64,000 nt of DNA. Origin: Nitrosopumilus sp. K4 (lineage in GTDB: Archaea > Thermoproteota > Nitrososphaeria > Nitrososphaerales > Nitrosopumilaceae). A model generated the notes under the pieces. That model was not told the DNA's origin. It was given only the letters and a program-made list of their open reading frames with translations, and did not search any database. Within the stretch, counting starts at the first letter, position 1; each line of letters opens with the position of its first letter. Where the stretch lies: the NCBI RefSeq assembly GCF_018128925.1, contig NZ_CP067007.1, positions 1,032,164 to 1,096,163 of the forward strand, given 5' to 3'. The position numbers and the translations under genes were made by a program. Below are positions 62,788 to 64,000 of this stretch, piece after piece.

Positions 62788-63276
62788 CTACTCTACAATG
62801 GTTATGATTCCCTTCATGTCAGGATGAATGGAACAATAGTAATCAAAAGTACCAGTTTGGTTTGCCAAAAAAATTATCGAGTCAGACTGGAAATAGCTCA
62901 GATCTTTTGTGTGTACATTGAATGCATCGATGTTTAGATTGTGTTTGGAGAGTTTGTTTGGTAAATTTTTCTCCTCATTGATAAGATGAATCTGGACAAG
63001 GTTTCCTTTAGCTGCAGTAAGTTCAGGAGACAGGCCTTCAGAGAACGGAAGAGACTTTCCTCCCCTGGTAGTTTGATAGTGATAATTCCCTTGAGATGAT
63101 TTTACTGCCTTTAGAGATATGTTAGTAGATGGTGCAAACACAAGCCCCTCTGAATTGACGGGACTAAATGATTTTAACGCAAAAAAGCCTATCAAGACAA
63201 AGACACAAAACACCACACCAATAGAAATAACATTTCCTTTAGAATATTTGGAAGTTTTTTTGCGTTTTTTGTTCAC
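62788..63276 (-). CDS. Membrane-anchored cupredoxin-like copper protein
   Basis: About 162 aa from GTG 63276 (167 from ATG 63291). Basic start, one transmembrane helix (I-S-I-G-V-V-F-C-V-F-V-L-I-G-F-F-A-L), then a plastocyanin-like beta domain. Type 1 copper ligands: His in L-N-I-D-A-F-N-V-H and the C-terminal Y-Y-C-S-I-H-P-D-M (Cys, His, Met). Sits outside the membrane, likely an electron carrier; such proteins abound in ammonia-oxidizing archaea. TATA (TCTATATAT) centred near 63303 favours the GTG as a leaderless start. Palindrome just upstream. Confidence 0.88.
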   Translation of the reverse strand: MNKKRKKTSKYSKGNVISIGVVFCVFVLIGFFALKSFSPVNSEGLVFAPSTNISLKAVKSSQGNYHYQTTRGGKSLPFSEGLSPELTAAKGNLVQIHLINEEKNLPNKLSKHNLNIDAFNVHTKDLSYFQSDSIIFLANQTGTFDYYCSIHPDMKGIITIVE

Positions 63277-63311
63277 GTAAAAAAAATGCATTTAGTGGAT
63301 ATATAGAATAA

Positions 63312-63324
63312 TTAACATTGTTAA
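63312..63324. promoter_or_regulatory. 13-bp palindrome, copy 1
   Basis: TTAACATTGTTAA, a perfect 6-1-6 dyad. It ends 4 bp before the TATA box of the cupredoxin gene (minus strand) and also lies upstream of the plus-strand zinc-finger gene at 63360. Confidence 0.65.
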
Positions 63325-63359
63325 GGTACTTCTAATACAAGTAATTTCCAAGTACAATC

Positions 63360-63515
63360 ATGGCATTTTCCAAAACATGTCCAGTTTGCAAGCAGGACTT
63401 TTCCTCACTTTTAGATTATACGTTACACATCAAGGATAGCCACAGCAAAGCACATCCTGAAGAATTTGTAAGCAATAAAGAAGAGATCAAGTGGTCATTT
63501 CGCCAACAAGATTAA
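63360..63515 (+). CDS. 51-aa zinc-finger protein
   Basis: Read directly: A-F-S-K-T-C-P-V-C-K-Q-D-F-S-S-L-L-D-Y-T-L-H-I-K-D-S-H. This is a C2H2-type finger (Cys-x2-Cys, then His-x4-His) near the N terminus, followed by a charged tail. DNA or RNA binding is plausible. Shares its upstream region, with the palindrome, with the cupredoxin gene. Its stop lies 1 bp from that of the opposing DUF1059 gene. Confidence 0.75.
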   Translation: MAFSKTCPVCKQDFSSLLDYTLHIKDSHSKAHPEEFVSNKEEIKWSFRQQD

Positions 63516-63516
63516 G

Positions 63517-63681
63517 TTACTGGGTCTTTCGCAGAATAAACTGCATTAGAGCTTCTCTTTGATATTCAATTCCATGTTCATCTTCGGTGTGTTTGCCAAA
63601 ATCTTGAATGACTTGGTCAACTTCACCTTCTGCTTCAAAGTCACACTCAAAACCATAGTCATTGCAACGTAATTTTATCAA
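63517..63681 (-). CDS. DUF1059-family small protein
   Basis: 54 aa from TTG 63681 (M-I-K-L-R-C-N-D-Y-G-F-E-C-D). Family pattern: two Cys near the N terminus and two His in the C-terminal helix (K-H-T-E-D-E-H), likely a zinc site. The TATA-like ACTATATTAG at 63707-63716 is 27-30 bp before this TTG, which supports it over the upstream TTG 63699. A palindrome copy lies just upstream of that TATA. Confidence 0.8.
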   Translation of the reverse strand: MIKLRCNDYGFECDFEAEGEVDQVIQDFGKHTEDEHGIEYQREALMQFILRKTQ

Positions 63682-63719
63682 GTCTAATTTTTTTCCCAAA
63701 TTCCGGCTAATATAGTTCA

Positions 63720-63734
63720 GTTAACATTGTTAAC
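63720..63734. promoter_or_regulatory. Palindrome, copy 2 (extended to 15 bp)
   Basis: GTTAACATTGTTAAC, a perfect 7-1-7 dyad containing the same 13-bp core. It begins 4 bp upstream of the DUF1059 TATA box, the same relation as copy 1 to the cupredoxin TATA. Confidence 0.65.
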
Positions 63735-63757
63735 TAAAGTTTCAGTGGCAATTCAAT

Positions 63758-63876
63758 TAATGCAGAAGCAAAGGAAATATGCCAAGCGTCTATTGGCAGA
63801 AAATGAAACCTAGGATGACTTGAAAACGTAAGATGTGTATCCATATTTCCTATTGGAGTAGATTGCTTCTGCATTA
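63758..63876. repeat. Two-part inverted repeat, intergenic
   Basis: TAATGCAGAAGCAA (63758-63771) and TTGCTTCTGCATTA (63863-63876) are perfect reverse complements. Next to them, AGGAAATATG (63772-63781) and CATATTTCCT (63842-63851) also match, with an 11-nt interruption on the right arm only. The RNA could form a 24-bp stem with a side bulge. No frame inside looks coding. Confidence 0.6.
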
Positions 63877-63910
63877 CGTAATCAGAGTATTTTTGGTATT
63901 TAGGAGAAAC

Positions 63911-63923
63911 TTAACAATGTTCA
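63911..63923. promoter_or_regulatory. 13-bp palindrome, copy 3 (one mismatch)
   Basis: TTAACAATGTTCA: reverse complement TGAACATTGTTAA, differing from copy 1 at one base. It ends 5 bp before a TATA-like TTTTATTAG (63929-63937), itself 26 bp before the ATG at 63959. Confidence 0.55.
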
Positions 63924-63958
63924 TTTAGTTTTATTAGAAATTCAACGGGTCTGATCTC

Positions 63959-64000
63959 ATGAAGAAGAAGAAAGAGGAGAAAGAAGATGAGAATCTTGCA
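63959..64000 (+). CDS. Start of a gene cut by the window edge
   Basis: ATG 63959 opens M-K-K-K-K-E-E-K-E-D-E-N-L-A and stays open to the end. The TATA box 26 bp upstream and the palindrome before it argue that this is a real leaderless start. Nothing can be said of the product beyond its highly charged N terminus. Confidence 0.45.
   Translation, partial: MKKKKEEKEDENLA

Follow-up and report, generated by a model that had tools for sequence, protein, structure and literature searches.

The palindrome TTAACAWTGTTAA, found near the end of a 64,000-nt stretch of the Nitrosopumilus sp. K4 genome (the window), is probably the operator of a small winged-helix regulator encoded in the same gene cluster, with a regulon that includes a cupredoxin. 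In ammonia-oxidizing archaea (AOA), whose energy metabolism depends on copper, very few pairs of regulator and operator have to our knowledge been described. Within about 2.5 kb the locus provides a testable operator, a named candidate regulator and an exact leaderless promoter geometry, together with a cupredoxin target conserved across the class Nitrososphaeria and a previously undescribed putative small RNA gene. No paper describing the operator motif or the hairpin RNA was found in the open-licence literature.

Operators in the window genome

An initial, sequence-only reading of the window reported a 13-bp palindrome, or a near copy of it, at three positions, and proposed that one regulator controls a small set of genes including that of a copper protein. 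All three copies are present, two exact and one with a single mismatch (Table 1), and the proposal of a shared regulator is supported by the promoter geometry, by co-occurrence with a winged-helix gene and by the cupredoxin promoters described below. The AAT or ATT centre completes the palindrome as TTAACA-W-TGTTAA. The genome has five operators, all within 1.8 kb: the three in the window and two just outside its edge, at genome positions 1096426 and 1097257. Four exact copies of TTAACAWTGTTAA and the near copy of the window make up this cluster, which spans genome positions 1095475-1097269.

The earlier reading also raised the prospect that the motif occurs genome-wide at the rate expected by chance. 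This is the case for the loose pattern TTAAC-N3-GTTAA, which has 5 matches with at most 1 mismatch in the window against 3.2 expected and, in its exact form (TTAACNNNGTTAA), occurs at 7 places in the whole genome, close to chance and neither rarer nor commoner. It is not the case for TTAACAWTGTTAA, which is clustered and occurs exactly at 5 places in the closed 1,645,909-bp genome, compared to 1 for the reversed control. The unusual features of the motif are its exact ATT/AAT centre and its clustering; the evidence presented here rests on the AWT-centred form and on clustering, and the loose pattern was left out. Motif copies at 99296, 100982 and 360030 lie within coding sequences and were dropped as operators. 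The exact copy at 1539205 (TTAACAATGTTAA, C1:1539205, L020:7206) was likewise rejected: it adjoins orc1/cdc6, is flanked by GGAAATAAAGGGGTC repeats that resemble origin recognition boxes, and is also found in the sister species G004, which lacks the gene cluster. The arrangement recurs in G001, G003, G004, G025 and G103 and is probably the replication origin, unrelated to the regulon.

Table 1. Features of the operator cluster (window positions unless marked as genome positions).
Feature	Position	Strand	Description
Cupredoxin	62788..63276	-	162 aa from GTG 63276; N-terminal membrane segment; YCSIHPDM copper-site motif
Operator 1, TTAACATTGTTAA	63312..63324	no strand	exact; separates divergent cupredoxin and C2H2 microprotein promoters
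C2H2-type microprotein	63360..63515	+	51 aa; weak Pfam zf-C2H2 match
DUF1059 small protein	63517..63681	-	start TTG 63681; Pfam DUF1059 32 bits, above cut-off
Operator 2, TTAACATTGTTAA	63721..63733	no strand	exact; serves DUF1059 (left), closes RNA gene at its 3' side
Probable hairpin RNA gene	63760-63874	-	~115 nt; 5' AUGCAGAAGCAAUCUACUCCAAUAGGAAAUAUG ... CAUAUUUCCUUUGCUUCUGCAU 3'
Predicted RNA gene promoter with CTAAATACC	63885..63902	-	commonest TATA form of the regulon
Operator 3, TTAACAATGTTCA	63911..63923	no strand	1 mismatch; hairpin RNA left, 35-aa microprotein right
35-aa microprotein, first part	63959..64000	+	ATG 63959, start MKKKKEEKEDENLADKKNEDWWRLEKSQIGRRKFS; full reading in L019; zinc-ribbon gene next, beyond the window
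Winged-helix protein	genome 1096875-1097207	-	110 aa; HTH_45; about 0.7-1 kb past the window edge

Promoter geometry

Read toward the gene, each copy in the window consists of TTAACAATGTTMA, a short spacer and a TATA-like box (CTATATAT, CTATATTA or TTTTATTA), with a spacer of 5 bp to the 8-base box of the CTATATAT type and ~8 bp to its TATA core. Three start codons, GTG 63276, ATG 63360 and ATG 63959, lie 35 nt from their operator, and the TTG of the DUF1059 gene at 63681 lies 39 nt away. These distances fit the geometry found in relatives, and the start codons of the earlier reading were correct. Operator 1 is flanked on each side by a TATA box, with start codons 35 nt away in both directions; the zinc-finger (C2H2) gene at 63360 occupies the flank opposite the cupredoxin, as the earlier reading had noted, and the operator likewise precedes C2H2 genes in relatives.

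The TATA-like box that had been noted 4-5 bp from the palindrome proved to be part of a fixed geometry when 121 distinct exact sites from ~25 relatives were aligned on the palindrome. Downstream positions 9-13 of these sites are 86-94% A/T, with T the commonest base at position 9 and A at positions 10-11, and correspond to the predicted TATA box. The opposite flank has a similar profile, each side having its TATA-like box at offset 9-14, suggesting that the operator often stands between two divergent promoters. Exactly 35 nt, the modal distance among conserved ORFs, separates operator and start in 46 cases, and 68 cases fall at 34-38 nt; together with the position of the TATA box, this distance predicts leaderless mRNAs. 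Because the spacing is fixed, an activator is favoured over a factor that competes with TFB, and activation from a site just upstream of BRE/TATA appears likelier than repression. The alternative is a repressor that blocks TFB, which fixed spacing could also suit; that the regulator mainly activates, by helping TFB/TBP, is moderately likely.

Operator-linked genes

The cupredoxin of the window matches Pfam Cupredoxin_1 with an E value of 1.5e-5, slightly below the family cut-off. Beyond the close relatives, 17 of 52 cupredoxin promoters have an operator with at most 1 mismatch, compared to 10 of 520 controls; these promoters mostly carry CTAAATA or a similar box, with the start codon at 36-38 nt in most. 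The search of related genomes suggested by the sequence-only reading has located the operator both at TATA-linked sites and at cupredoxin promoters in several genera of the class Nitrososphaeria, and the cupredoxin appears to be the most widespread operator target seen. The cupredoxin and winged-helix genes are adjacent in many genera, and in related genomes the operator lies upstream of both cupredoxin and C2H2 genes. In Nitrosotalea-type genomes the winged-helix protein is present and exact operators are absent nearby; there the place of the operator in the cupredoxin promoter is taken by a shifted palindrome, TAAACTTTGGTAA, or by a site related to it, and it is possible that operator and protein changed together. 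Such a site is accompanied by a cupredoxin start at 38 nt in L060-L068 and L145-L165.

Past the window edge the cluster continues with the zinc-ribbon gene, a 122-aa membrane protein, the winged-helix protein, a second C2H2 microprotein (57 aa) and a double AsnC-type ligand-domain protein, with the same operator motif between the winged-helix and second C2H2 genes. C2H2 microproteins are operator-linked in 24 genomes (32 proteins, of which 27 have exactly 35 nt between operator and start), the membrane protein in 16, DUF1059 in 15 (operator 21-38 nt before the start) and the zinc ribbon in 8. The 35-aa microprotein, with a start 34-36 nt from the operator and a RLEKFQIGRKKF tail, is conserved in 9 genomes. 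An HtrA-like serine protease, named from sequence motifs, is operator-linked in 3 genomes; at L069:701, L093:2508 and L111:2502 the operator or a near copy lies 56-79 nt ahead of the protease gene. A ~145-aa family with no Pfam match is operator-linked in 9 genomes, mostly at 35 nt (L077, L080, L092, L119, L120). In G079, two overlapping operators (L076:8520 and 8541) lie between a DtxR/Fe_dep_repress regulator and a putative carbonic anhydrase (Pro_CA_2).

In the window genome this module fills ~4.6 kb between rpl11 and an lrp gene (L019:4924-9568, window 62760 onward). G004 (L222), a sister species without the module, represents the empty site, with rpl11 and lrp ~22 bp apart. The module is far from rpl11 in G032, G079 and G034, and no rpl11 was present in the module loci read from G001-G003.

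A probable hairpin RNA gene between operators 2 and 3

The second flanks of operators 2 and 3 face an inverted repeat that does not figure in the earlier reading. Leftward from operator 3 it runs through ATGCAGAAGCA, a conserved CTACTCCAA, an inner arm, a loop, the other inner arm and GCTTCTGCAT. Its 5' end lies 36 nt from operator 3, the position taken by the start codon in protein-coding genes of the regulon, and CTAAATA stands at a constant offset in nearly all copies. A covariance model detected the RNA in 23 of 151 genomes of the family and in 25 of 300 genomes of the class, in three genera only; it occurs in genomes having operators. Of 12 copies lying outside the model, all 12 have an operator 36-37 nt upstream (9 exact, 3 with 1 mismatch), and in 11 another operator closely follows the 3' arm. 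An Rfam search of the cluster region gave no meaningful match, placing the hairpin in no known family. Several dispersed copies, each with its operator, are found in G104 (L103, L105, L106) and G239 (L232-L234).

The RNA has a folding z-score of -4.0 on average. The inner arms vary among copies yet pair with their own partners, with a mean duplex energy of -10.1 for cognate arms and -7.6 for non-cognate arms; with repeats removed, 1 in 5000 permutations of the partners was as low. RNAalifold on a MAFFT alignment recovered the terminal helix only and no covariation; as the terminal arms barely vary, the evidence for covariation is confined to the inner helix. It is fairly likely that the hairpin RNA, which has a conserved unpaired CUCCAA segment, is transcribed and acts as an sRNA. 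A leaderless ORF beginning at ATGCAGAAGC was considered and rejected: the frame of the conserved CTACTCC differs between copies, most of which reach a stop after 14-34 codons. Inspection by eye of Shine-Dalgarno leaders as partners of the CUCC segment gave no convincing pattern.

The inverted repeat might instead be a MITE-like DNA element with terminal inverted repeats, a reading compatible with the preferred reading of the operator. The near-invariant terminal arms ATGCAGAAGC/GCTTCTGCAT, the dispersed copies and the differing chromosomal places of the whole module would all suit such an element. The operator and promoter that the copies carry lie outside the repeat. A MITE is nevertheless unlikely: in nearly every copy the 5' end keeps a distance of 35-37 nt from an operator that has CTAAATA, whereas the 3' arm is variably spaced, the dispersed copies retain the operator, the variable inner arms match their own partners, and no transposase of its own was seen. 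Under the RNA gene reading, the operator-bracketed hairpins may tentatively be assigned to a new AOA family, co-controlled with the cupredoxin by the winged-helix regulator in a module that changes place, and forming the sRNA arm of a copper/redox response.

The candidate regulator

The winged-helix protein scores 27.6 bits against Pfam HTH_45 (PF14947), above the 25.5 cut-off; its scores of 20.3 bits against Pfam MarR and 27.8 bits against NCBIfam Sso10a_fam are below the respective cut-offs of 24.6 and 60. The AlphaFold model of a close orthologue (pLDDT 85) is a winged helix with a long C-terminal helix, whose nearest folds are MarR, PadR and Sso10a-2, mostly MarR at TM 0.5-0.6; the comparison with Sso10a-2 gives TM 0.62 and rmsd 1.7. 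No relative of the protein was found in viral contigs.

Enrichment of the motif in a set of 151 Nitrosopumilaceae genomes is confined to those that have the winged-helix gene. The 20 genomes with a close orthologue (at least 75% identity) average 5.4 exact motifs and the other 131 average 0.80, against 0.95 and 0.77 for the reversed control; part of the background is the palindrome beside orc1/cdc6. In genus g11, the mean number of motifs is 5.9 in the 9 genomes that have the gene and 0.08 in the 12 that lack it (control 1.1 and 1.9; p 2e-5, a guide only since the genomes are related). Presence and absence alone cannot single out the winged-helix gene, because all cluster genes co-occur, and related genomes are not independent. 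A wider survey of winged-helix relatives at 80 class loci in named genomes found exact TTAAC-N3-GTTAA within 200 bp upstream in 14, compared to 1 in 800 for ten permuted palindromes together at the same loci. Nitrososphaera and Nitrosocaldus are represented among the 14 loci, and in these genera the TATA offset is constant even though the spacer can vary; some orthologues in genus g14 have no operator within 150 bp upstream. Taken together, these patterns suggest that the winged-helix protein is most probably the binder of the operator.

The operator could instead be bound by a different trans factor encoded in the cluster, namely one or more of the C2H2 microproteins: C2H2 fingers are able to bind DNA, and the C2H2 genes are the commonest operator-linked genes and have the strictest geometry. 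A single finger is nevertheless unlikely to read a 13-bp palindrome alone, and g11 genomes without operators still hold C2H2 relatives of 55-59% identity. At L216-L219, where operators are found at the cupredoxin and DUF1059 genes, the operator-linked genes include the winged-helix gene and no C2H2 gene. The class-wide association of the operator is also with the winged-helix gene, though these loci were fetched by that gene. Binding by C2H2 proteins is improbable on this evidence. More improbable still is an extended core-promoter element recognised by a special TFB paralogue, with no regulator site involved. AOA have many TFBs, the spacing to TATA is constant at 8 bp and BRE is adjacent, but the element, a perfect palindrome flanked by TATA in either direction, vanishes from genomes that lack the module. 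A TRASH-domain regulator of the CopR type (Lrp class) is the least credible binder, despite the closeness of the Pyrococcus furiosus CopR motif to TTAACA-W-TGTTAA (PMC7830388), as Arc_trans_TRASH (PF08394) has zero matches in the closed window genome and in G032, which has 9 motif copies, while TRASH genes are present in the operator-free genomes G047, G059 and G073.

Proposed mechanism and comparison with known systems

In the mechanism favoured here, the winged-helix regulator, HTH_45/MarR-like and probably dimeric, would dock on TTAACAWTGTTAA directly upstream of BRE/TATA at short, mostly leaderless and often divergent promoters, and would aid TFB/TBP at one or both of the flanking promoters. 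The genes under its control would be those of the cupredoxin, the C2H2 and zinc-ribbon microproteins, DUF1059, a small membrane protein and the hairpin RNA, and very likely its own. The signal may be copper or redox state, as a cupredoxin is among the targets.

CopR of Pyrococcus appears to be the nearest working parallel. Its motif in P. furiosus, TTNNCAWWWTGNNAA, immediately precedes BRE at promoters that are regulated by copper, some of them divergent (PMC7830388). Both systems have a semi-palindromic site in this position (TTnnCA...TGnnAA for CopR; TTAACAWTGTTAA, 8 bp before TATA, in the window genome), a single site that can serve two divergent promoters, and copper-linked targets, here the cupredoxin. 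They differ in the spacer between half-sites (1 here, 3 in CopR), in the candidate regulator, a single winged helix in which a Pfam search found no TRASH metal-binding domain, and in the targets, which are a cupredoxin and microproteins and not copA. TFB-RF1 of P. furiosus also uses a palindrome just upstream of BRE/TATA and has its gene within its own small regulon; its TCTG-N5-CAGA site and its targets are unrelated, and recruitment of TFB has been shown for TFB-RF1 (PMC5937170), whereas it is only inferred here. The HTH_45 match and Sso10a-2-like fold recall the Sso10a/HTH_45 proteins, although the winged-helix protein looks like a sequence-specific local regulator and not an abundant chromatin protein. 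Promoter motifs tied to copper have also been reported in another ammonia-oxidizing archaeon, Nitrososphaera viennensis, where TTCSGSMTTTGWACYANT and RATTTAAABATAGATTTAAATAATAAS are associated with copper limitation (PMC7785015); their sequences are unrelated to TTAACAWTGTTAA.
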